Of a DNA stretch of 64,000 bases, positions 10,534 to 63,998 are shown one piece after another (positions within the stretch are counted from its first letter, which is position 1; each line of letters starts with the position of its first letter). Under the pieces are notes generated by a model that saw only the letters and a list, made by a program, of their open reading frames with translations, was not told where the DNA came from and made no database searches. A program made the position numbers and the translations under genes. This DNA comes from Armatimonadota bacterium (GTDB lineage: Bacteria; Armatimonadota; Fimbriimonadia; Fimbriimonadales; Fimbriimonadaceae), in contig DAIDHV010000002.1 of assembly GCA_027451905.1 (NCBI GenBank), positions 310,001 through 374,000 on the forward strand, read 5' to 3'.

Positions 10534-11469
10534 ATGGCCGAATCCCCAAGAGTCTTACTAGTTCGCTTTTCTGCAATTGGTGACTGTGTGATGACGGCTT
10601 GGAATGCCACCTCCGTGCGGCTTCTCTATCCCGAAAGCCATATCACGTGGGCAGTCGAAAAGCGTTGCCATGCGGTTATTGATGAAGACCTTCTTGTGAA
10701 TGAGTCGGCAGTCTTTGATAGATCAAAAGGTGGAGTTTCGGCGGGAAAGTGGTGGCGGCAGATCAGAAGTTACCTTCAGTTGCGCCAACAGCACTTTGAT
10801 TGGGGTATTGACTTTCAGGGTCATGGCAAAACTGCGTTAGCCCTTCGAATAGCTTGTCCGGGCAAAGGATTGATGGTGAGGAGCACCGACAAATTCTCGA
10901 TGCGCCTGAACCGGGTTGCGGGCCCTGCATTATGCGGCGAACACACCATTGAGCAAAATCAAAGAGCGTTGGCGAACTTTGGTGGGTTTGAAGTTCCAGA
11001 TTTGCCCTTGATGCCGAAGCTGCCAAATGCAGGCAAGCTAAGATTTGATGTTGTCATAGCGGTAGGAGCGGGCCATCCTTCAAAGACATGGAATCTGGAC
11101 CGATGGCTATCTGCTAAAGCCCAGCTAGCAAATTATGGTTTGCGGGTTGGGCTGATTGGTGGACCCCAAGACCCCTTGCCAGACAATCCAGATGAGGGGA
11201 ACATGGTTGGAAAACTAACTTTAAGGCAATCGATGGAAGTGATTGCAAACTCAAGCTGTGTGCTTTGCGGCGATACCGGAGCGGGCCACATAGCAGCCGC
11301 TTACGGCGTGTCAGTCGTGTCTATTTTTGGGCCAACTTCGCCGGTGTTGTACCGTCCCTATACCCAAGCGGGGGTTGTCTTGCAAAATGGAAGTGAGGTC
11401 AATGAAGTTTCGGTGGAAGAGGCAGTTGAGGCTGTGCTAGGGTGTTTAAGGAGGGCCGTTCAACGATGA
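10534..11469 (+). CDS. Glycosyltransferase family 9 (heptosyltransferase-like)
   Basis: 311 residues. GT9 enzymes add heptose to the LPS inner core from ADP-heptose. The N-terminus RVLLVRFSAIGDCVMT is the typical GT9 opening, followed by FDWGIDFQGHGKTA, VAVGAGHPSKTWNLDRW and the donor-site region CGDTGAGHIAAAYGVSVVSIFGPTSP. It stops in an ATGA overlap with a second GT9 gene. WaaC versus WaaF role cannot be assigned by eye. Confidence 0.88.
   Translation: MAESPRVLLVRFSAIGDCVMTAWNATSVRLLYPESHITWAVEKRCHAVIDEDLLVNESAVFDRSKGGVSAGKWWRQIRSYLQLRQQHFDWGIDFQGHGKTALALRIACPGKGLMVRSTDKFSMRLNRVAGPALCGEHTIEQNQRALANFGGFEVPDLPLMPKLPNAGKLRFDVVIAVGAGHPSKTWNLDRWLSAKAQLANYGLRVGLIGGPQDPLPDNPDEGNMVGKLTLRQSMEVIANSSCVLCGDTGAGHIAAAYGVSVVSIFGPTSPVLYRPYTQAGVVLQNGSEVNEVSVEEAVEAVLGCLRRAVQR
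11448..11454 (+). promoter_or_regulatory. Shine-Dalgarno that fixes the second GT9 start
   Basis: AAGGAGG lies inside the end of the first GT9 gene, 11 nt before ATG 11466. This ATG overlaps the upstream TGA (ATGA), so 11466 is preferred over the earlier in-frame GTG at 11442. Confidence 0.75.
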
Positions 11470-12500
11470 GTTCCTTGCTTCCATCGTTAGGCAAGCTAGG
11501 AAGGAAAGAGCCCAAGACACCTAGTCCCTTACAGATGGATTCACTGTTGCTGGTTAGGCTCTCCTCGATGGGTGATGTTGTGTGCACCTTACCAGTGGCT
11601 GGCTTTCTAAAGCAAGCCTTGCCGGAGGTGCAGATCAGTTGGGTTGTGGATCCCCGGTTTGCCAGCCTTGTAGAGGATTGCAGGCATGTGGATGAGGTCA
11701 TCACGGTGAAGGCAACGCCGCTTCGCCAAAGTTGGGAGGCAGTTCACAAGGACTATAGCGCGGTTTTAGATCTGCAGGGCCTAGTAAAAAGCGCTTGGAT
11801 GACCATAGCTGCCAAATCTAAGATAAAACTGGGATACCATTGGCAAAGGGAAGGTGCGTGCCTGACTTCTGCCCAAGTGCTACCCGATCCTACATCCATT
11901 CACATAGTGGATCAATACGTTGATGTTGCCCGAGCCTTGGTTGCAAAATCTAACCGACCAGTACCAGAATTTGTTGCTGATTTTGGATTGGTTCCTAACT
12001 CAGAGGCAACCAAAGAGGTGCAGCAAAAGCTTTTGAACAGCGGGGTCAAGGGCAGGTTTGTTGTAATGAACCCAGGTGGAGCATGGGCAACAAAGCAGTG
12101 GAAGCCTCAATCTTTTGCCCAGGTTGGGGCAGGGCTTTTGAAGCATGGCATCCAAAGCGTGCTGATCGGGAGCAAATCTCGGGCCGAAACAACTGCCATT
12201 CAATTGGCCCTTGCGGAGGCACAAAAGTTAGGCAGTCCTCTGGTTTCTATGCAAGGTCAAACGACGATCCGCGAACTGACCAGTTTAATCGGCTTATCAG
12301 CCGCTCATTTAGGTGGCGATACGGGGAGCACCCATATTGCGGCTGCGCTTTCAATCCCTTGCGTGGGGCTCTATTCCATTACGAAGCCGGAAAGATCGTG
12401 CCCCTATGGTCAGATTGACAACTGTTTGTATAATCCTATGAAGCTTGAAGACATTACGGCTGAAGAAGTTTTAGGCAAGCTGCTGCCTTTGCTGCAATAG
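11466..12500 (+). CDS. Glycosyltransferase family 9 (heptosyltransferase-like), second copy
   Basis: 344 residues from ATG 11466. GT9 signatures: LLLVRLSSMGDVVCTLPVAG, AVLDLQGLVKSAWM, MNPGGAWATKQWKPQSFAQV and GGDTGSTHIAAALSIPCVGLYS. It is coupled to the first GT9 gene by a 4-base ATGA overlap. With rfaE2 three bases downstream, both GT9 enzymes probably build an ADP-heptose-dependent inner core. The other ADP-heptose genes (gmhA, gmhB, rfaE1, hldD) are not in the window. Confidence 0.88.
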   Translation: MSSLLPSLGKLGRKEPKTPSPLQMDSLLLVRLSSMGDVVCTLPVAGFLKQALPEVQISWVVDPRFASLVEDCRHVDEVITVKATPLRQSWEAVHKDYSAVLDLQGLVKSAWMTIAAKSKIKLGYHWQREGACLTSAQVLPDPTSIHIVDQYVDVARALVAKSNRPVPEFVADFGLVPNSEATKEVQQKLLNSGVKGRFVVMNPGGAWATKQWKPQSFAQVGAGLLKHGIQSVLIGSKSRAETTAIQLALAEAQKLGSPLVSMQGQTTIRELTSLIGLSAAHLGGDTGSTHIAAALSIPCVGLYSITKPERSCPYGQIDNCLYNPMKLEDITAEEVLGKLLPLLQ

Positions 12501-51101: not shown

Positions 51102-53573
51102 ATGAACCAAGCTAGAAAGGTCGAACTGCTTGACCCTCATACCATCAACCAAATTGCGGCTGGTGAAGTGGTGGAAAGGCCCGCGTCTGCCCTGAAAGAG
51201 TTGGTGGAGAATTCCCTAGACGCAGGTGCAAGCCGCATCGTTGTTGATTTAGAAAAGTCTGGGAAGGCCCTCATGAAGGTGGTCGATGACGGCCACGGCA
51301 TGTCTTCTGAAGACATGGGGATGGCCCTCTTGCGGCATGCAACCAGCAAAATCCGGCGAGTGGAAGACCTTCACCACGTTGAGTCTTTGGGGTTTCGGGG
51401 TGAGGCTTTGCCGTCGATTGCCTCGGTTTCTCGGCTAAGCCTCAAATCGGCAACCGATCATGGCATCGCCCATCAAATAGATGTCGAATACGGGCAAATT
51501 ACCCATTCAGGTCCAGTTTCAGGCCTCAAAGGCACAGAGGTCCTTGTCCGAGATCTTTTTGGGAATACACCGGCAAGGCTCAAATTTTTAAAGAGCGACA
51601 CGGTTGAATTGGGGGCTTGCATGGATGCGGTAAGCCGCCTTGCGATGTCCCACCCCGAAGTGGGTTTTCTCTTGCGCCACGGAGGACGAGAGGTCTTCCG
51701 CACCGACGGAAGTGGCAACCTTTATGAAGCGATTTCCGGAATATGGAGCCGAGAAATCGCGTCTGGTCTTGCCCGCGTTGACGGTGAGGTGGCAGGAATT
51801 CGGCTTGAGGGGTATGTCAGCCCACCTTACCTGACAAAACCCACGAGGGCCTTCCAGTTTTTGTATGTCAACGGTCGATCGGTGAAATCTCGGTCACTGA
51901 CGATCGCACTCGATCAAGCCTACCGAGACATGACCCCTGAGAGGCGATTCCCTCTCATTGTTTTGAACTTGCAGGTCAATCCCGAATGGATTGACGTCAA
52001 CGTATCGCCAACTAAGTCCGAAGTTCGGTTTCAGAGGGAAGGCGCCGTCTTCGAGGCCCTACGGGTCGCCATTCGGTCTGCCCTTTTGGAGCAAGGAATG
52101 ATCCCCAACGCGCGGGCAGTGGCTACCGTTAACGAGGCGCTGGCGAACCTAGCCCAAAAGTCAAGTTTCGGCATGAGCACGGAGTCCCAAACTCTTTGGA
52201 GAAATGGCCAAGAGGAGTCAAATCGGGTGCGATCGGAGACAGGCTTTCTTGGGGACGGATCCTTTTTACCGGGCCACCTAGGGCAGGCGTCGGGTGGGGA
52301 GAGGTCTTTGATGGAGGGTCTTGTTGGTTCCGAGTCAAACCGCGAGGGTTTCGAGGGAATCTTGAATGGGGGAAGCAGCGTGCCAACGACAGGTTCTGCC
52401 TCCTTAGCCCCAAACTTTGTATCCACGGGAATAGACGCCCCCTTGACGGGGAGCCATCCAGGGTCCAAAGAGGATGGGGGATTAGGGTTCCTTGGGGCTC
52501 TTCTTGATGATGGGTTTGAAAGGGCGGAAGTTGCGGACCAGGCAGGGCAAGATGTTCGGGGCGGAAATGAAGATCGAGTTGGATTTCAGGATGTTAACGG
52601 ACCGAAAAATAATCCCTTTAACGGGAGTCAAATTCAAAACCGGGATCAGAGCCATGATCGCGATCAAAACCTAGTTCAAACGGAAAACCAAGATCGAGGT
52701 CAAAACCGGGATCGGGGGCAAAACCAGGACGTTTCAAGGGATCAAAGCAAGGACGTTTTGAGGGATCATAGCCAACGTTGGGATCAAAATCAGGTTCAAA
52801 ACTGGGACAGAGATCAAGATTTTTTTGCAGGAGCCCTCGAATACCCATCGACTCAAGCCCAGGGGTTTAAGACGCAAGCGGTCAACCTTTCCTCGGCAAC
52901 GACAAACCTCGAAGAACAGCCACTTGGGCAGTCACCTAGTCCTTCACTTAGTCCGTCAAGTAGTCCGTCTCCAAGACAGCCATTTCTTGAGCTTTTGGAT
53001 GGATTGCGGGTCATCGGGCAAGCGATGAAGACATTTATCCTTGCCGAAACCGCCAAGGGGATAATTATCATCGATCAGCACGTGGCCCATGAACGGATTT
53101 TGTATGAGAGGCTCTATCAACAAAGGGGAAGAGGGGCCCTAGAAACTCAGCCTCTGCTGGCACCCTTGGTTCTTGCGTTTGATAAACGAACTCTTGTTTT
53201 GTTGGGAGAACGGATTGATGAAGTCAGGGAAGCGGGATTCGAGGTTGAGCCCTTTGGGGCGAGCGGTGAACTCTTGGTCAGGGCGGTCCCTGCTGTCATG
53301 AGGAGCAAAGATCCCGCCAAGTTGGTGAGATCATTGGTCGAAGATATTGCCGAGGGGGTGGCTCGGCACCGAACCCCAACTTGTGAACAGGTTTGGGCGA
53401 TGGCTTCTTGCAAAATGGCGGTTAAGGCAGGAGATCCGCTTAGTATTGCCGAAATGACAAAGCTTATTGAAGATCTTGCGATTACGGAGAATCCGTACCT
53501 TTGCCCCCACGGGCGGCCGATCACCGTCACTTTAGATGGTTACCAATTGCTGAAGCTTTTTAAGCGGGTATGA
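51102..53573 (+). CDS. mutL: DNA mismatch repair protein MutL with very long repetitive linker
   Basis: 823 residues, versus about 600-650 usually. N-terminal GHKL ATPase about 1-335 (INQIAAGEVVERPASALKEL, VVDDGHGMSSEDM, HATSKIRRVEDL, ESLGFRGEALPSIASV). C-terminal dimerisation/endonuclease domain about 630-823, with DQHVAHERILYE (metal-binding DQHA-x2-E-x4-E with Ala to Val), ASCKMAVKAGD and CPHGRPITV, so it probably has nuclease activity. Between them some 300 residues are disordered, with a Gln/Asn/Asp/Arg repeat at about 510-575. AAGGAAG precedes the ATG. ruvC follows. Confidence 0.95.
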   Translation: MNQARKVELLDPHTINQIAAGEVVERPASALKELVENSLDAGASRIVVDLEKSGKALMKVVDDGHGMSSEDMGMALLRHATSKIRRVEDLHHVESLGFRGEALPSIASVSRLSLKSATDHGIAHQIDVEYGQITHSGPVSGLKGTEVLVRDLFGNTPARLKFLKSDTVELGACMDAVSRLAMSHPEVGFLLRHGGREVFRTDGSGNLYEAISGIWSREIASGLARVDGEVAGIRLEGYVSPPYLTKPTRAFQFLYVNGRSVKSRSLTIALDQAYRDMTPERRFPLIVLNLQVNPEWIDVNVSPTKSEVRFQREGAVFEALRVAIRSALLEQGMIPNARAVATVNEALANLAQKSSFGMSTESQTLWRNGQEESNRVRSETGFLGDGSFLPGHLGQASGGERSLMEGLVGSESNREGFEGILNGGSSVPTTGSASLAPNFVSTGIDAPLTGSHPGSKEDGGLGFLGALLDDGFERAEVADQAGQDVRGGNEDRVGFQDVNGPKNNPFNGSQIQNRDQSHDRDQNLVQTENQDRGQNRDRGQNQDVSRDQSKDVLRDHSQRWDQNQVQNWDRDQDFFAGALEYPSTQAQGFKTQAVNLSSATTNLEEQPLGQSPSPSLSPSSSPSPRQPFLELLDGLRVIGQAMKTFILAETAKGIIIIDQHVAHERILYERLYQQRGRGALETQPLLAPLVLAFDKRTLVLLGERIDEVREAGFEVEPFGASGELLVRAVPAVMRSKDPAKLVRSLVEDIAEGVARHRTPTCEQVWAMASCKMAVKAGDPLSIAEMTKLIEDLAITENPYLCPHGRPITVTLDGYQLLKLFKRV
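52628..52824 (+). repeat. Degenerate short tandem repeats in the mutL linker
   Basis: About 200 bases made of diverged copies of a unit close to GGGATCAAAAC/CGGGATCA, encoding runs such as RDQN, DRGQN and WDQN. Copies vary in length by whole codons, so the frame is kept. It looks like an expanding/contracting repeat region. Confidence 0.7.
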
Positions 53574-56605: not shown

Positions 56606-58288
56606 CTAGATGATGTTCTTACGGGTCAATTGCTCGCCCTTTGTTCTGCCAATCGGTTTCACGGAAATCACATTCTCGGCGGGATGATCAAGGAGCTCCA
56701 GCCAATCTTCGGTGAGGTCCGACTTGGGAAAGATTTCATTTTCTTTGAACTCCTTTCTCATTGCCAAGGAGAGATCTTGCCCGGAAATCCCAGGTTCTTG
56801 GTTAGGGTGCTTGATCGCTCTTTTGATTGCGATGTCTTTTGCCCTATCAATGATGCTCTTGAGGAGGGCACCAGAGACCACATCTTTGGTGTACAGCGTT
56901 TCTGAACTGCCATTTTTTAGATTAACCTTCAGGAACTCGTTTTCTTTTGACTTGGCCCAGAACTCTTCGACTAGATTCTCAATCAGTTCTTTCCTTGCGC
57001 AGTCCAATTCACCTTGATTGCGCTTCAGAACTTCTGGATCCAAAGGAATGCCCTCGTGAAGGTAGATTCCAAGAATTTGAGTTGCTGCCGCTTTGTCGGG
57101 TCTGGAAACCTTGACTTTGCGGTCAATCCTTTCGGGGCGCAATACGGCGGGATCAATGTAATCTGGTCGGTTGGAAGTCAGGATGAGGACCACGTTATCC
57201 AGCGACTGCAATCCATCGAGTTCCGCGCAGAATTGAGGAACAACCGTATTGGAGATGTTGAGCCACCGTCCAGATGATCTTGTTCGCAGAACGGATTCCG
57301 CTTCATCCATGAAGATAAAAACAAGAAAGCCTTCTTTGGCTTTTTCCCTTGCGGTCCGAAAGACTTCTCTGACAATTCGCTCGGTTTCTCCAAGCCACAT
57401 GTTGAGAATTTTAGGGCCGGAAATGGCCATGAAGTACTCTTGCACAGGCTTTCCAAGCCGGGCCGAATACTCCTTGGCAAGGTTGAAGGCGGTTGCCTTT
57501 CCGATCAAGGTTTTGCCGCAACCAGGAGGACCGTAAAGCAAAACCCCTTTGATCGGCTTTTTGTCGAACTTTTTAAACAACTCTGGGTGCAACAGAGGCT
57601 GCTCAATTGTCTCTCGGATGAGTTGAATGGCTTCTGATTGCCCACCCACCTTCTCCCAAGGAAGGTCTGGGACAGCTTCTAAAAAGTAGTCTCGAACCTC
57701 GTCGGATTGGTAAATTTCAACTGCCATGCGGCCAGAAGGATCGAGCCTGACTTCGTCACCGGTCTTGATGATGGATTCTTTGAGGGAATCGGCTCGGTCA
57801 ATGATCCGTTTTCCGGCACCGCTTGGGCCAGATCCAAGCCTGAGCCTTCCGTCTTCTAGCGAATCCTTGACCTTTTCGATGCGGCCGGTTCTAGGAGACG
57901 GCAAAACGTTGACAATGGCATAAGCTTCATTGAGGCAAACACAGGCGCCTGGCGTCAATCGGCTCTGATCCAATTTCGAATCCACTTCGGAAACATAATC
58001 GGAGTCCCCAAGGACAACAAGGGCTAGGTTTCGGTTGGGTTGGCCCGCTTCTTCTTCGGTGAGCCATCTCAAAAACACTCCGATCCGGTTGGCGGGTGCG
58101 GTTAGCTTGGCATAGGCTTGCTCATATTCGGCAAGCAGCTTGTGGACTTCTTCTTGGCGGAGTTCATCCTTTTTGACGCTTTCGCGCAAGGCAGATAGGT
58201 AACTTTTTAGCCGTGGCTGATCACCGCTTGTTTGCTCCTCAATCTTATCGATGAGCCGTAAAATTTCGCTACCGCTTTCTTCCTGCAT
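56606..58288 (-). CDS. ARC/Mpa-type AAA+ ATPase (proteasome-associated family)
   Basis: 560 residues. N-terminal coiled coil (about 5-65), two OB-like domains (about 68-205), one AAA+ module: Walker A LLYGPPGCGKTLIGKA (253-260), pore loop KILNMWLGETER, Walker B FIFMDEAESV (324-331), and Arg-finger region LRPERIDRKVKVSRP. This order is that of ARC/Mpa, the hexameric unfoldase that feeds the bacterial 20S proteasome. It ends in KNII, not in the QYL-like tail that docks Mpa to the proteasome. No prcAB, pup/UBact, dop or pafA gene is nearby. Probably in one transcript with the two upstream genes. Confidence 0.85.
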   Translation of the reverse strand: MQEESGSEILRLIDKIEEQTSGDQPRLKSYLSALRESVKKDELRQEEVHKLLAEYEQAYAKLTAPANRIGVFLRWLTEEEAGQPNRNLALVVLGDSDYVSEVDSKLDQSRLTPGACVCLNEAYAIVNVLPSPRTGRIEKVKDSLEDGRLRLGSGPSGAGKRIIDRADSLKESIIKTGDEVRLDPSGRMAVEIYQSDEVRDYFLEAVPDLPWEKVGGQSEAIQLIRETIEQPLLHPELFKKFDKKPIKGVLLYGPPGCGKTLIGKATAFNLAKEYSARLGKPVQEYFMAISGPKILNMWLGETERIVREVFRTAREKAKEGFLVFIFMDEAESVLRTRSSGRWLNISNTVVPQFCAELDGLQSLDNVVLILTSNRPDYIDPAVLRPERIDRKVKVSRPDKAAATQILGIYLHEGIPLDPEVLKRNQGELDCARKELIENLVEEFWAKSKENEFLKVNLKNGSSETLYTKDVVSGALLKSIIDRAKDIAIKRAIKHPNQEPGISGQDLSLAMRKEFKENEIFPKSDLTEDWLELLDHPAENVISVKPIGRTKGEQLTRKNII

Positions 58289-58404: not shown

Positions 58405-59679
58405 TTAGGTTGAAGAGACCTGCAAGCCCAAAGCCGTATTGACAGCCTGAAGAAGAGCTTTTGCGGTGGCAAGAGCCTGAGTCTCCGCCTGATAAGATCC
58501 AGAAAACCTGGTTTTTATTTGCTGCTCCTCTAGGGTTCCTTCCACCGAACCCACGAAGGTGTGGTTAGGATCTTGGAACGCATAAGCAGCGTCTAGCTGG
58601 ATGAGTGTCTCTGGCATCGCCTTGGTGAGGGCAGAGAGCACGGCTTCGGCAGCGGCAGAACCAACTGACTTTTGACCAGGCTGAGATTCGCCTTCAAATC
58701 GATCATGGTTCCAGCTCACAATGAGTTGAATCACGGGGCTTTCACTATCCGATTGGTGAATTTCGGCCAGCTCCAAAGGACCGTTTTCGGCTGATTTGGT
58801 ACCCAAAGTCGTGGACACAACCGCCTTAGGCTGGATTTTTTTCTTGCGAGCATCGGCGAGGGCTAGGTTGATGAGGTCTTCAATGTTGGATTCAGGATGA
58901 ACCGCGCTGCGCTCGTGGGTGCGGCGGCCACCAGCTATACCGACGGTGACCCCGATCTGAATGGCAAGCCCTTCACTGAGTCGGCTAGGCACAATTGCCA
59001 AGATTTCCTCCCCCAACTGCTGGAGTTGGGCCCTTGGCCGAGTGGTTCCAATTAAGAATTTGTCTCCTCCTGCCCGGACTAAGATATCGGATTGGGGGCT
59101 GATTTTGGAGGCAAGTTCTCCTGCTAATTTCTGAAGGAGGACGTCGGCCCGTCGGTGGCCAATGGCAGAGTTGACCTTTCCAAATTTATCGACATCAACC
59201 GCCAAGACGCACACTTCAACCCCATTGCCAAGCTGAGCCGCGCCCCATTCCCTCAAGAGATCCACCCAACTGAGTCCGGTTAAAGGATCCGAGGAGCGGA
59301 ACAGCTCCTTTAGCATCATGTTGGAGGTCAAGATGCCCAAAAAAAGGTCTCCACTTTGCACGGGTGCTGACGAAATGTCTTCTCTTACAAACTGAGCCGC
59401 GGCTTGGCGCAAAGTCATTTTGGCATCCATGACGGTGGAAAACGGTTTCAGAATATCGGCTAAATGAGCCTGGGGGTTAGCTTTTTGCACCTGGTCAAGT
59501 TCAACAAACCCAAGAATGGCCCCGTTTTTGACGACCGCAAGCTGCTGAATCTTGTGCCCTTTCATGACAAACTCTGCCGTCTGAGCCAAATGCTCAGGGG
59601 CAAGCCAGATGGGCTGATATTCAATCGAATCTAAAGTTTGCATTGGCAGCAGGCGCAAAAGCCCTCTTTCATTAAGCAC
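58405..59679 (-). CDS. CBS-pair protein with degenerate GGDEF domain and unknown C-terminal domain
   Basis: 424 residues (GTG 59679; ATG 59643 possible, removing 12 residues). CBS pair about 15-125 (FVMKGHKIQQLAVVKNGAIL, ISSAPVQSGDLFLGILTSNM), GGDEF-type domain about 130-300 opening with DPLTGL and VDVDKFGKVNSAIGHRRADV. The signature reads RAGGDKF (204-208), Glu to Lys, and no RxxD I-site is seen, so cyclase activity is unlikely. The last ~110 residues (VIQLIVSWNHDRFEGES then AAAEAVLSALT) are a domain I cannot name. It may bind adenine/guanine nucleotides. Between DnaA-like and ARC genes, same strand. Confidence 0.8.
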   Translation of the reverse strand: MLNERGLLRLLPMQTLDSIEYQPIWLAPEHLAQTAEFVMKGHKIQQLAVVKNGAILGFVELDQVQKANPQAHLADILKPFSTVMDAKMTLRQAAAQFVREDISSAPVQSGDLFLGILTSNMMLKELFRSSDPLTGLSWVDLLREWGAAQLGNGVEVCVLAVDVDKFGKVNSAIGHRRADVLLQKLAGELASKISPQSDILVRAGGDKFLIGTTRPRAQLQQLGEEILAIVPSRLSEGLAIQIGVTVGIAGGRRTHERSAVHPESNIEDLINLALADARKKKIQPKAVVSTTLGTKSAENGPLELAEIHQSDSESPVIQLIVSWNHDRFEGESQPGQKSVGSAAAEAVLSALTKAMPETLIQLDAAYAFQDPNHTFVGSVEGTLEEQQIKTRFSGSYQAETQALATAKALLQAVNTALGLQVSST

Positions 59680-59752
59680 TTAAAGACGGGTTAAACGTGT
59701 AAAAACAAGCCGGTCAAATTACCTGATTTTACGGAATTGACCCAAAAACCTG

Positions 59753-60808
59753 TTATTCTTGCAGAAGAAATTCCACAACTTCAACCGCAATCCGGGAAGC
59801 GGCTTCTCTTTCAAAGGGGGTGTCGGGAAGCGTCTTCGCAAAGGAATTGGCCCTTAAAAAGGCTTCCGAAGCGGTCATATTGTAAAAAACTGACACTGAA
59901 GATTCACTGAGCTGGGCTACCTTGAGCATCAGGTAAAGGGCCAAATCCTTTGCCCGATTTCTGGGCAGCATTCCTCGATTCTCAAAGGAGACACGGGCAA
60001 TGGCTTCTCGAAGGTCCCAACCGCTGTCGTCAGACAGGAAAGGGTTGATAATCCCACAGGCAAAGAGGGTTTGGGCGGGGTCTGACCAATCTCGAGTTGT
60101 CAGTTTGAGCCGTTTTACAATGCCAACGTAGGACCTTCCGCTGCACTTGACCCGTGATGCCAAGAGCCTCACAAGCAATGGCGATACCAACAGGTGCTCC
60201 GTTTGGCAAATTTGGGAAATGATCAACGTTCGGTCTTCAAGACTCGGAGTTTGAATTTGGGCTACTACCCAATCTTTCGAGGCAGGCAAGAGGGACCGTG
60301 CGAATTTAGCCGGCATCTGCGACGTCATGCTGACAAGGGTGCGGCGCCCAGATTTAACCCTCCGATCAAGCCCAAGTCTGAGGTTTTGCCGTAATTTGGA
60401 TTGGCAGGCAGCGTCTTGAATATTGTCGAGGATTAAAGGCTCGGAACCCTCTGACTTTTGGTTCTTTAAACTCCAATCAGCGGCTTCTCTCACCGTTGTC
60501 TTTGCTTCGTGGGGCAAAAGTTGGGCAACTGCTTCAAGCAGATGAGATTTTCCGTATCCGCTGGGACCCACAATTGCAGTGAATTTTCCGTGACCAAGAA
60601 CAAAGAGCCGACAGGCCCTCACCGCTTGAATATTGCTTTCCACCACCGCGATGTTTCCAAATTGTTTGGGTTCTCGCTCAAAAAGGACGTCGGACAGCCT
60701 TTCTTGGCTTTTCTCAGTCGTCTCGATTTGATTTGATGTGAAGCGATCTTGCTCGGAACGAGCAAAATGGCCAAGGGCACCGTCAAGGAGCGCGCGAGGA
60801 GAGGTCAC
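59753..60808 (-). CDS. DnaA-like AAA+ ATPase with degenerate DNA-binding domain
   Basis: 351 residues, GTG start at 60808. Walker A AIVGPSGYGKSHLLEAVAQL (81-88) and Walker B PLILDNIQDAA (125-132) match the DnaA pattern (GxxGxGKTHLLHA, IDDIQ). Residues about 185-235 follow DnaA domain III sensor-2/lid order (SLEDRTLIISQIC, YVGIVKRLKL), and 285-351 resembles domain IV (RAKDLALYLMLKVAQLSESS), but the DNA-contact signature GGRDHTTV is replaced by YNMTASEAF. N-terminal DnaA domains I-II are absent. Likely a DnaA/Hda-type regulator rather than the initiator. Has its own promoter and upstream DnaA boxes. Confidence 0.7.
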   Translation of the reverse strand: MTSPRALLDGALGHFARSEQDRFTSNQIETTEKSQERLSDVLFEREPKQFGNIAVVESNIQAVRACRLFVLGHGKFTAIVGPSGYGKSHLLEAVAQLLPHEAKTTVREAADWSLKNQKSEGSEPLILDNIQDAACQSKLRQNLRLGLDRRVKSGRRTLVSMTSQMPAKFARSLLPASKDWVVAQIQTPSLEDRTLIISQICQTEHLLVSPLLVRLLASRVKCSGRSYVGIVKRLKLTTRDWSDPAQTLFACGIINPFLSDDSGWDLREAIARVSFENRGMLPRNRAKDLALYLMLKVAQLSESSVSVFYNMTASEAFLRANSFAKTLPDTPFEREAASRIAVEVVEFLLQE

Positions 60809-60823
60809 GGTTCTTCCCTTACA

Positions 60824-60852
60824 ATAGTAATGGAATCTTGTCCATACGTCAA
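60824..60852 (-). promoter_or_regulatory. Sigma70-type promoter of the DnaA-like gene
   Basis: Minus strand TTGACG (-35, 60847-60852), 17-bp spacer, TACTAT (-10, 60824-60829). The start point would be about 60817, only some 9 nt before the GTG, so the message would be almost leaderless. Confidence 0.65.
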
Positions 60853-60968
60853 GGGCAAGTCATTATTGGCAAGGCTTCGTGAGTCAAGTTCAATGAGCTT
60901 TGATTTGCTTCACTTATCACGATTTTTCGCGATTTCTGCCTTTTTTCTTAATGTGAGAAATTCGGGAC

Positions 60969-60989
60969 TTATGCACATGGTTTTCCACA
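60969..60989 (+). promoter_or_regulatory. Two tandem DnaA-box matches
   Basis: TTATGCACA (60969-60977) fits TTATNCACA; TTTTCCACA (60981-60989) fits TTWTNCACA. Same direction, separated by 3 bases. They lie 117 bases upstream of the -35 box, next to an A/T-rich stretch (60901-60955). Confidence 0.6.
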
Positions 60990-61034
60990 TTTTTGCATCC
61001 TCACTAAGGGCTGCGAAGCATGACTTTCCCCATC

Positions 61035-61055
61035 CCATGATTTTCGAAAACATGG
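61035..61055. repeat. Inverted repeat near the DnaA boxes
   Basis: CCATG-A-TTTTCGAAAA-CATGG, a palindrome broken by one extra A. It is just past the cytochrome stop; a regulator operator or a terminator stem are both possible. Confidence 0.4.
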
Positions 61056-61074
61056 GGCCAGCTTGGGCGCATCA

Positions 61075-62364
61075 TCAATGATGTTTGATCTTAAGCCAGT
61101 AGGTGGCAAAATTGAAATTGGGGCTGTTTTCCTGGGTATGGCAGGTGACGCAAACCTTAGTTCCCAGGTTCATTTTTGCCCACTTGGGATTGAGAATATG
61201 GGCACCGCCTGGACCGTGGCAGCTTTCGCAAGTGACGTTGGCCAATTGTGGAGTTTTAGATTGGGATAGAAACCCGCATGTGCTGCTTAACCCCGTGACA
61301 TGGCATTTGACGCAGTCTGGGTCAAGCCCATGACCTTGTTTGAGCAGGTCCAGATAGGCATGAGAATGGGCGCTGGAGTGCCACCGATTAAAGTCAGCCC
61401 GATGGCAGGAAAGGCATGCCTTTGAACCCACGTAATGAATCGTCTTGGAACGAGGCCAAAGTTTTAAGAGTTGAGCCTGATCCACTTGGTGAAGGTAATC
61501 ATCCATGACTTCAGTGCCCTTTTTAGCATTGGCAAAATCGGGGCCCAGGGGAACAGGCTTGAGTAGCACAGGCCCATTGTTGGAATAGGTAACCACTAGG
61601 GCTTCGCGACCAAGATCCCCGGGACTCACGAGCCACGTCTTTCCGACCACTTCCGGGGATTGAGTTGCAGTACCAAGGCTTTGGTAAATGATGAGGCTAA
61701 GGCTTGGATGCAGTTGAGCTAGCCTTTCGGCTGATGTCTTGCTGGCGGTTGTTATCAAAATTGCAGCCTCCCCATTTTCTTTAGCCTTAGCAGCGAAAGC
61801 GGTGATGGCAGGGTCATCACCAGAAGATGCCACCTGCGAATTGCTTTGCATTTGTGGTGGAGGGCTACAGCATCCAATGAGAAAATGAGATGCAGCGGAG
61901 GTTGAAATTACTTGAGAAGGCGAAGCCTGGACTCCGTTTAACGCCTTGTTGCCCGATAGCTGAGAAATCTCCGAGACAAGTCCTTGACCGTAAGAGGCCT
62001 CATCCGGCCCGACTCCAAGGACATCGCATCGAAGTTCCTGAGCAAATTCAGCGACGGCTTCTGCTTTCATGACGTTTTGCTGCAGCCCAATTGATGAAGC
62101 GTTGCTTGCGCTTGGCACCGAGCCGGGGGTCAGTAAAACCAAGGTTGACCCCTGCTCTCGCTCTTGGTCAATTAGGGTCGCAAGTCGCCTTATCCCTCCT
62201 ATCATTGGGCTTGTGCATCCACAAGGCTCAAGGGAACCGTTGAAGTGACCGCTAATGACGATCCTGGTGAGGGAAGAATGGAGCGATTGGGATGGTTGGG
62301 GCTTCCAGTGAAGCCCACCGCTTACAATTCCTAGTGTTGCCGCTGCCCAGCACCAAAATCTCAT
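61075..62364 (-). CDS. Exported tetraheme cytochrome c with N-terminal phosphoesterase-like domain
   Basis: 429 residues. Short N-terminal hydrophobic stretch (MRFWCWAAATLGIVSGG). Residues about 30-270 resemble the UshA/5'-nucleotidase-type domain often joined to cytochromes (GSLEPCGCTSPMIGGIRRLA), but the metal-binding Asp/His motifs are not recognisable (VLLTPGSVPSA in place of an L-x-D-x-GD), so it looks inactive. The C-terminus is a cytochrome c-554-like domain with four CxxCH sites: CLSCH, CVKCH, CESCH, CVTCH. A role in periplasmic or surface electron transfer is likely. 14 bases after the DUF1573 gene. Confidence 0.85.
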   Translation of the reverse strand: MRFWCWAAATLGIVSGGLHWKPQPSQSLHSSLTRIVISGHFNGSLEPCGCTSPMIGGIRRLATLIDQEREQGSTLVLLTPGSVPSASNASSIGLQQNVMKAEAVAEFAQELRCDVLGVGPDEASYGQGLVSEISQLSGNKALNGVQASPSQVISTSAASHFLIGCCSPPPQMQSNSQVASSGDDPAITAFAAKAKENGEAAILITTASKTSAERLAQLHPSLSLIIYQSLGTATQSPEVVGKTWLVSPGDLGREALVVTYSNNGPVLLKPVPLGPDFANAKKGTEVMDDYLHQVDQAQLLKLWPRSKTIHYVGSKACLSCHRADFNRWHSSAHSHAYLDLLKQGHGLDPDCVKCHVTGLSSTCGFLSQSKTPQLANVTCESCHGPGGAHILNPKWAKMNLGTKVCVTCHTQENSPNFNFATYWLKIKHH

Positions 62365-62378
62365 CTCGGGTGCATTAC

Positions 62379-63998
62379 CTACTCCGCAAACCGGCCCGAA
62401 ACGGGAACTTTGATAATGGGCTGGGATGGTGAGTTGGTTCTCAACGTGAGAGTTGCCTGAATTGGGCCAAATCCTGGCTTGCGGAGGTACCGGATCGTGA
62501 TCGTGTGAGAACTCCCCCGCCCATTTCCAGAAGTCCTCACCGAAAACTGGGGAAGGTTGAGGGATGCGCTGAGGATTCTAAACTGGCGGCCTGGCCAAGA
62601 AACTTGAACTGAAAAAGGCCGAAAGCTTTGCCCGACTGGTCCAAGAAAGACTGGCGATGGATCGCAGACAATGCCATTTTGCAAGTAGATTGTGTTATTG
62701 ATGGCACCAAAAACGGAATCATTTGTGCTGAGGTTCAAGGTCACGGGCACTCTTTGATTCTTGAAGTCCTTGGGGATCGTAATAAGGAAGCGGTACCCAT
62801 CAATCGTCTGCTCCCCATCACCAACTTTGACTTTGCCATGGAAAGGAGATTCGGAGACATGAAATCCAGCCGGCTGCACCGTCCAACCCAGGGGTTTGAC
62901 GCTTGGTCCATAAAACTCTAGATATTCCACAATATGCCGCTCGCCATGATGAATGGTCAAATTGGTAATGCTGGCGTCTAGACTTCCAGTCGATTGATGA
63001 ACACTAGACTGGGTAATGAATCGAAAGCGGCGCTTGATATTGACATCCACGGGGATGGTGATTTCGGAAGCACCTGGGTCGTTGGTAAATAAGTAAAGTT
63101 CTTTGTGGACCTCGGATCCATAGGCAGTAGTATCCATGCCCATTTTATAAAATCCAGTTTGACCGGCGGAGAGATCTAAAGGTGGTTCTTGAGTAAAGCA
63201 AGAGCAGTCTGGATGAAGTACCGTTTTCAGGGTTCCTTTTCCATAGTTTGTGACCTGAAGAGTTATTGAGAGCTGATCCCCTTGGACAACGCCTTTCGTC
63301 ACAACAACATTTTGCGGATCAAGAGAGATCTTAGGACTATTGACGGCAACCGCTTGGCGATCCCTGGTTGCCTTCAACAAGTCATCGACAAGGGTTAGGT
63401 TCTTATCAACAATGACTTGGTCAGAAGGCAGGCCAACATGGGTCCCCGTGTCGGGTCCGTTAACCAAGTGGGCAAAGCTGCTTGGGTTGGGGCTTTCATG
63501 CAGCCCAAAGTATTGGCTTAGGCCATATTTAATCGAGTTGTCAACTTCTAGGGCACTTGATCTTTGAAGCGGATCTCCTCTTTTGAGCCCGACTATAATC
63601 TCGTAAGGAGCTGAGCCTCCATGATTAAATACGGCGACGGAAGCAGGGATTTGAGAGTCATTGACTTTGGCAAGATGATCGGCGTACTCGATGCTGAGGT
63701 TTGGCTTCAGGGTTCCTTGGCTGTACAGGGGATCGGTTGTTGAAAAGAACGTTAGTCGGATGGGAAGACCATTTTGCCAAGCGGACAATGCGTCTTGTAG
63801 GGCACTAAAGTAGTCTGACCTCAATTGCTTTGGGACCGCCGAATCATCGTACCGAATCGTAATCACCCTCTTGGGAAGATATTGGGCTAAGGCAGCTGCT
63901 TTTTCGAACTGGCCCAGACTGAGTTGGTTTTCTACTCCCTCAACCAATTGCAAGAACTCCCTGCTGTCACCTGGTTCAACTGGAGGAATATCGGCCGT
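62379..63998 (-). CDS. DUF1573 protein with metzincin-like N-terminal part (partial at right edge)
   Basis: The frame is open to the window edge, so the 5' end is missing. Residues about 15-210 of the visible part recall matrixin-type proteases (PIRLTFFSTTDPLYSQG, SIKYGLSQYFGLHESPN), but the zinc motif HExxHxxGxxH is not kept (NSIKYGLSQYFGLH). About 215-310 is a DUF1573 domain (VTNYGKGTLKTVLHPDCSCF, then SAGQTGFYKMGMDT), and two further beta-sandwich (HYDIN/ASH-like) domains follow to the C-terminus. Precedes the tetraheme cytochrome by 14 bases; probably same operon and same compartment. Confidence 0.75.
   Translation of the reverse strand, partial: TADIPPVEPGDSREFLQLVEGVENQLSLGQFEKAAALAQYLPKRVITIRYDDSAVPKQLRSDYFSALQDALSAWQNGLPIRLTFFSTTDPLYSQGTLKPNLSIEYADHLAKVNDSQIPASVAVFNHGGSAPYEIIVGLKRGDPLQRSSALEVDNSIKYGLSQYFGLHESPNPSSFAHLVNGPDTGTHVGLPSDQVIVDKNLTLVDDLLKATRDRQAVAVNSPKISLDPQNVVVTKGVVQGDQLSITLQVTNYGKGTLKTVLHPDCSCFTQEPPLDLSAGQTGFYKMGMDTTAYGSEVHKELYLFTNDPGASEITIPVDVNIKRRFRFITQSSVHQSTGSLDASITNLTIHHGERHIVEYLEFYGPSVKPLGWTVQPAGFHVSESPFHGKVKVGDGEQTIDGYRFLITIPKDFKNQRVPVTLNLSTNDSVFGAINNTIYLQNGIVCDPSPVFLGPVGQSFRPFSVQVSWPGRQFRILSASLNLPQFSVRTSGNGRGSSHTITIRYLRKPGFGPIQATLTLRTNSPSQPIIKVPVSGRFAE

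Follow-up and report, generated by a model that had tools for sequence, protein, structure and literature searches.

Proteasomal ATPases of eukaryotes and Actinobacteria are described as docking by a tail with a penultimate tyrosine (PMC8755798, PMC4254994). The locus considered here, a 64,000-nucleotide stretch of an Armatimonadota genome (hereafter the window), encodes an ARC/Mpa-type ATPase that ends in KNII. The initial annotation took it for an orphan without a docking tail and left two possibilities: either its partners lie elsewhere in the genome, or it works alone or with another protease. We therefore ask whether this ATPase belongs to a proteasome system and, if so, how it might be held to the core.

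The ARC gene and its product

The open reading frame encodes 560 amino acids and terminates in ...GEQLTRKNII followed by a TAG stop codon, which confirms the KNII end. The product has tandem OB folds and a single AAA module, all three Pfam domains scoring over cut-off (Prot_ATP_ID_OB_N at residues 68-135, Prot_ATP_ID_OB_C at 139-193 and AAA at 249-395), and Mpa is its closest match: the sequence similarity reaches residue 551, with 333 bits to PDB 5KWA over residues 105-551. Together with the N-terminal helices, these features agree with the complete ARC layout first reported; the layout is correct and the gene looks intact (Table 1). By analogy with Mpa, residues 3-63 are the probable coiled coil that would capture UBact. 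Against the proteasome ATPase profile TIGR03689 the protein scores 446 bits, below the equivalog cut-off of 504.75, and a search of the whole genome with this profile gave no match above that cut-off; the protein is therefore classed as a UBact-type variant and not as that equivalog.

The fold was predicted with AlphaFold from an alignment of 16 ARCs that includes the window ARC, giving a mean pLDDT of 73.5 and a pTM of 0.52. The end of the model is unconfident, with residues 548-560 below a pLDDT of 50 and the tail predicted to be disordered. Every one of the best 30 fold matches is an Mpa chain, at query TM scores of a modest 0.28-0.39. What we take to be the Walker A (GPPGCGKT) and Walker B (MDE) motifs and the arginines R384 and R387 are conserved in the 16 aligned ARCs. 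The pore loop had been read correctly as MWLG: M297, W298 and G300 are invariant in this alignment, and the third residue is L or V.

Table 1. Features of the ARC locus (positions in the window); some of the relatives' 35 ARC loci are cut short, which affects the neighbour counts
Feature	Position	Strand	Basis
UBact-type ARC (Mpa-like) proteasomal AAA ATPase, 560 aa	56606..58288	-	TIGR03689; Pfam OB_N, OB_C and AAA; Mpa best sequence and fold match
N-terminal helices, residues 3-63	58100..58282	-	AlphaFold helices 3-19 and 25-63
Tandem OB folds, residues 68-193	57710..58087	-	PF17758 and PF16450
AAA module, residues 249-395	57104..57544	-	PF00004; conserved in 16 aligned ARCs
Pore loop M297-W298-L299-G300, aromatic-hydrophobic-Gly type	57389..57400	-	Alignment of 16 ARCs
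C-terminal tail RKNII, proposed tyrosine-free proteasome-docking motif	56609..56623	-	102 distinct ARCs; read directly
GGDEF protein, upstream of ARC; Pfam GGDEF 54.7 bits, CBS 23.9 against a cut-off of 24	58405..59679	-	Homologue in 13/35 relatives' ARC loci
P-loop protein, upstream of ARC	59753-60808	-	Pfam; homologue in 19/35 relatives' ARC loci
Cytochrome c554-type protein, upstream of ARC	61075-62364	-	Pfam; homologue in 18/35 relatives' ARC loci

The 35 ARC loci came from a one-protein scan that returned close relatives only, namely 31 Armatimonadota, three entries titled 'bacterium' and one titled Methanoregulaceae. Among the upstream neighbours (58405-63953), a large protein with a weak DUF1573 match also recurs in 17 of these loci, with the same limit on the count. 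Elsewhere in the window, at 51102-53573, we read a MutL homologue whose two ends flank a long linker of low complexity in which Asn, Gln, Asp and Arg abound.

Partner genes elsewhere in the genome

The genome (2.87 Mb in 37 contigs, 98% complete) was searched throughout with profiles. None of the partner genes lies in the 64-kb window, as had been noted; the Pup_ligase, proteasome and UBact matches sit on three other contigs (C5, C3 and C1), so that the complete kit is dispersed over four loci, with ARC in the window, Dop, UBact and PrcB on C5, PafA on C3 and PrcA on C1. Hence the term 'orphan' does not hold, and it was the first of the two possibilities, partners located elsewhere, that proved right. 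A second ARC accompanied by a full locus, which by the initial annotation would have refuted its reading, is absent: the genome has a single ARC, the next AAA match reaching only 132 bits.

The two Pup_ligase homologues, on C5 and C3, score 416 and 411 bits to PF03136, respectively. The former is clearly Dop-like (342 versus 266 bits), and the latter is weakly separated as PafA-like (290 versus 284 bits). The Dop-like gene is adjoined by a 65-aa UBact gene and a beta-subunit gene; dop (10660-12186 in locus L003) and UBact (12168-12365) share 19 bases, and one base is common to the UBact stop codon and the prcB start. UBact scores above both curated cut-offs (76.1 bits versus 35, and 74.1 versus 27.8) and ends in SGQ. 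Since this end is a glutamine, Dop would have to deamidate it first, as happens with Pup (PMC12288473). Across the phylum, 47 distinct UBact ends comprise 27 GE and 20 GQ, the search pattern itself having required such an end.

PrcA and PrcB both exceed the PF00227 cut-off and miss the NCBIfam equivalog cut-offs; the same is true of ARC, Dop and PafA against the equivalog cut-offs of the Pup system, and only UBact passes its own. The alpha subunit on C1 gave a weak first match, and the possibility that it was missing was rejected on a TIGR03691 match (E 2.5e-19) with which Pfam agrees; its PDB matches include PrcA of Rhodococcus and of M. tuberculosis. The catalytic residues T1, D17 and K33 are present in PrcB of this genome and in all 56 distinct PrcB sequences.

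Co-occurrence and gene arrangement across the phylum

We surveyed 201 Armatimonadota genomes of at least 85% completeness, the window genome included, with an ARC threshold of E 1e-60. ARC was found in 119, PrcA in 120 and UBact over cut-off in 119, a sub-threshold UBact match in genome G023 being excluded from the last count. All three occur together in 117 of the 121 genomes that have any of them. The exceptions are G078 (ARC only), G144 (UBact not found), and G038 and G200 (ARC not found). PrcA is thus present in 118 of the 119 ARC-bearing genomes, the sole exception being G078 (87% complete, 420 contigs), against two of the 82 genomes without an ARC match.

Gene proximity was measured from start to start, and genes within 10 kb were counted as together. 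Outside the order of the window genome, ARC, UBact and PrcA lie within 10 kb of each other in 39 of 58 three-gene genomes; the remainder have only UBact with PrcA (15), only ARC with UBact (2) or none together (2), some of these being contig breaks. Match positions, in genome G041 for example, give the order ARC-Dop-UBact-[beta]-PrcA-PafA, in which the beta gene is an open reading frame of fitting size assigned without a profile score. In the other families of the window's order, seven of nine genomes keep UBact with PrcA and have ARC away, and two have none together. Within the window's own family, taken from the named relatives to be Fimbriimonadaceae, no two of the three genes are within 10 kb in 49 of 50 complete systems: none of the 50 has ARC within 10 kb of UBact, and a single one has it that near to PrcA, at a distance of 8 kb. 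In a tree of ARC sequences built by a quick method with the last 12 residues omitted, ARC-UBact adjacency requires at least four changes (85 rows, ambiguous cases uncounted). The gene cluster apparently came apart by stages, a reading that stays at the level of inference because the tree is unrooted.

A different type of locus was also seen in the survey. L220 (genome G007, contig C18, 850-10852, minus strand) encodes a second, divergent ARC-like ATPase (TIGR03689, 275 bits) beside two Pup_ligase homologues, together with a ThiF/E1-like protein (Pfam, 96 bits) and a weak JAB match. By eye there are also E2-like and zinc/RING-like proteins, which gave no Pfam, NCBIfam or PADLOC match. We read the locus as a hybrid of Pup-type and ubiquitin-type conjugation genes, and nothing on such a locus was found in the literature searched. 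ATPase and ligase homologues of this type occur also in L221 (genome G140, contig C582), and in G005 (contig C39) and G074 (contig C14) further Pup_ligase homologues lie side by side, similar to those of L220 in their scores and in being paired. At the thresholds used, G005 (99% complete) has no ARC, PrcA or UBact match, so that ligase homologues occur there without that proteasome system.

A conserved tail without tyrosine

The 35 named ARC loci yielded 33 tails, the other two loci being cut off by the end of a contig, and tails were also read in 87 of the 119 ARC genomes. After duplicates, the N-terminal fragment of G080, the paralogues L190 and L191 and copies of the window were excluded, 102 distinct C-termini remained. 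The survey covers the Armatimonadota sample, further relatives having been found only within the window's order; a search of a plasmid collection returned three Actinobacteria only, and a DNA search of the same collection with the L163 cluster one short archaeal match only.

Position -2 is isoleucine (56) or valine (46) in every one of the 102 ARCs. At position -1, I (62), V (29), L (5), M (3) and F (1) account for 100, and the other two have H and S. K or R stands at position -4 in 76 and at position -5 in 79. There is no tyrosine among the last four residues of any of the 102, and the GQYL motif is absent; as a control, the same extraction gives a GQYL end in two of two actinobacterial ARCs. 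The stretch preceding the tail varies in sequence and length, the terminal residues being far better conserved than this linker. The comparison thus upheld the non-QYL end and overturned the idea that the protein lacks a docking tail: in 100 of the 102 a different, conserved motif, the I/V-I/V type of ending, takes its place.

The alpha-subunit pocket

According to PMC9599533, the GQYL tail of M. tuberculosis binds in two modes over the seven alpha subunits. In five of them the tyrosine bonds Arg26 and the carboxylate makes no salt bridge with Lys52; the other two have the tyrosine bonded to Glu119 and such a bridge between carboxylate and Lys52. The glycine at -4 bonds Asp144 of the neighbouring subunit and, in the five-subunit mode, also Ser146, which bonds a backbone carbonyl in the Mpa-proteasome structure. 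The activator PafE contacts Arg26 and Lys52 and cannot do without either; the exchanges D144A and S146A merely slow Mpa-driven degradation, and E119A gives an inactive core with an apparently unprocessed beta subunit (PMC9599533).

We aligned 61 distinct Armatimonadota PrcA sequences with those of M. tuberculosis and Rhodococcus. An actinobacterial PrcA as an extra control was not found in the Nonomuraea stretch fetched, and the actinobacterial reference for the pocket consequently rests on these two PDB sequences. Lys52 and Asp144 are kept in 61 of 61. Arg26 is kept in two, and is otherwise replaced mostly by D (16), S (11), E (10), A (6) or Q (5). Glu119 occurs in none, its position being taken by V (52), I (3), L (3), T (2) or A (1), that is, V/I/L in 58. 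The residue at position 146, serine in Mycobacterium, is acidic in all 61 (E 40, D 21). All five pocket states occur together in 56 of the 61, and the alignment anchors Pro117, Gly38 and Gly145 each hold in 61 of 61. PrcA of the window genome has Q, K, L, D and D at positions 26, 52, 119, 144 and 146.

From these sequences, the pocket appears to keep its capacity to bind a carboxylate and to have lost that for tyrosine, and it would place an acid near the expected basic residues of the tail. We regard this pattern as the strongest sign that the I/V-I/V tail may dock in the same pocket. Several of the mutational and structural data temper the comparison. For Mpa the Lys52 salt bridge is seen in only two of the seven alpha subunits, and loss of the side chain at 144 or 146 does no more than slow degradation; given the apparently unprocessed beta subunit of E119A, position 119 may bear on core assembly and not on the tail; and since an acid cannot bond a backbone carbonyl as Ser146 does, the geometry of the pocket must differ. 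Moreover, tail and pocket may have changed in a single event, no later than the base of the phylum, which means that the counts are not of independent events.

Proposed mechanism and alternatives

The sequences themselves show that the genes are present, conserved, found together in genomes and dispersed, and they give the motif of the tail, the substitutions in the pocket and PrcB's catalytic residues. On these grounds we consider it probable that the window ARC is the unfoldase ring of a complete UBact-proteasome whose genes no longer lie together, and that its docking relies on a tail lacking tyrosine. The unconfident end of the fold model and its pTM, the shortfall of ARC, Dop, PafA, PrcA and PrcB against the equivalog cut-offs and the two tails ending in H or S count against this reading. 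The expression and assembly of the system in this genome are putative, and so are the geometry of docking, the opening of the gate, each enzymatic step, hexamer formation and unfolding by ARC, and UBact conjugation in the cell. The C-terminal glutamine of UBact would be deamidated by Dop, and PafA would then ligate the deamidated UBact to lysines of the substrate. ARC would capture UBact by its N-terminal coiled coil, and the AAA ring would thread the substrate, by its W-L-G pore loops, into the PrcA/PrcB core.

With somewhat less confidence, we favour the view that Armatimonadota use a second docking code between AAA ring and 20S core, in which the last ARC residues, mostly [K/R]-[K/R]-x-[I/V]-[I/V]-COOH, stand in for HbYX/GQYL. 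The lysine of the pocket, Lys52 in M. tuberculosis PrcA, would be the partner of the terminal carboxylate, both branched side chains would fill the pocket where the tyrosine-contacting Glu has become V/I/L, and the basic residues of the tail would face the acidic residue at the Ser146 position.

A competing view accepts the complete UBact-proteasome and has ARC hold the core mainly by its C-terminal domain, touching outer PrcA helices, the I/V-I/V tail having some other function, for instance in packing within the ring or in binding an adaptor. Mpa does require beta-grasp contacts with the alpha ring (PMC9599533), and Cpa binds the proteasome without a tyrosine tail (PMC6017811); the predicted disorder of the ARC tail points the same way. 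Against such a division of labour speak the carboxylate lysine, retained in all 61 PrcA sequences while the tyrosine contacts are lost, and the conservation of the terminal residues, which far exceeds that of the linker; we judge it unlikely, though it deserves more weight than any other alternative.

An ARC working alone or with another protease, the second possibility of the initial annotation, would fit the distances of ARC from UBact and PrcA within the family and its GGDEF, P-loop and cytochrome gene neighbours. Against a lone ATPase stand the near-constant company of PrcA in ARC-bearing genomes, its rarity where ARC is not matched, and the common clustering of ARC elsewhere in the phylum with dop-like, UBact and prcA genes. 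We hold this reading to be very improbable, and an orphan or moonlighting ATPase was rejected on the co-occurrence with PrcA and UBact. As for a normal tail lost by frameshift, assembly error or gene decay, the missing QYL is the sole point in its favour; 100 of the 102 distinct ARCs share this type of ending, which refutes it, since a motif kept across the sampled phylum is neither a remnant of decay nor the product of a frameshift or of chance. This explanation was rejected, and we give it practically no credence.

Comparison with known systems

If the preferred reading of a UBact-proteasome with tail docking is true, a tyrosine-free tail with a matching alpha pocket, present throughout a lineage, would be a natural alternative docking code and would give a direct test of docking versus gate-opening contacts. 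No report of a tyrosine-free ARC tail was found in the literature searched (subscription UBact papers fell outside its scope), nor any literature joining Pup, ARC and Armatimonadota; the papers retrieved there that name UBact concern, by their titles and opening abstract lines, other subjects. The locus also calls for caution, in that a single contig is insufficient for calling an ARC orphan: in the window's family the full system is present and its cluster broken up.

PA28/11S, which is not an ATPase, and the actinobacterial Cpa are set beside ARC by description only. Both bind the 20S core without a tyrosine motif, as is proposed for the window ARC, and PA28 draws binding energy from its C-terminal residue (PMC6017811). 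Points of difference are that PA28 opens the gate by activation loops and that Cpa is Cdc48-like, with its last five residues dispensable (PMC6017811).

According to PMC5666114, Armatimonadetes, Nitrospirae and Verrucomicrobia have proteasome subunits that group in a subcluster apart. Dop/PafA outside Actinobacteria and Nitrospirae are called very sporadic, occurring in a few draft genomes, in PMC7947786, whereas a Pup_ligase homologue exceeds the Pfam cut-off in at least 125 of our 201 Armatimonadota genomes.

With Mpa/ARC of the actinobacterial Pup-proteasome (M. tuberculosis Mpa; PDB 5KWA, 5KZF, 7PX9, 7PXC), the window ARC has in common two OB folds, an AAA module and a similar C-terminal part. 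It differs in the pore loop, which is F-V-G in actinobacterial Mpa and W-L-G here, and the actinobacterial proteins end in GQYL whereas those of Armatimonadota end in I/V-I/V. Relative to the UBact-proteasome systems (NF033388, PF20513), all of the components, namely UBact, Dop-like and PafA-like proteins, PrcA, PrcB and ARC, are present in the window genome too; the difference lies in their arrangement, the genes being split among four loci here and lying apart in the family as a whole.
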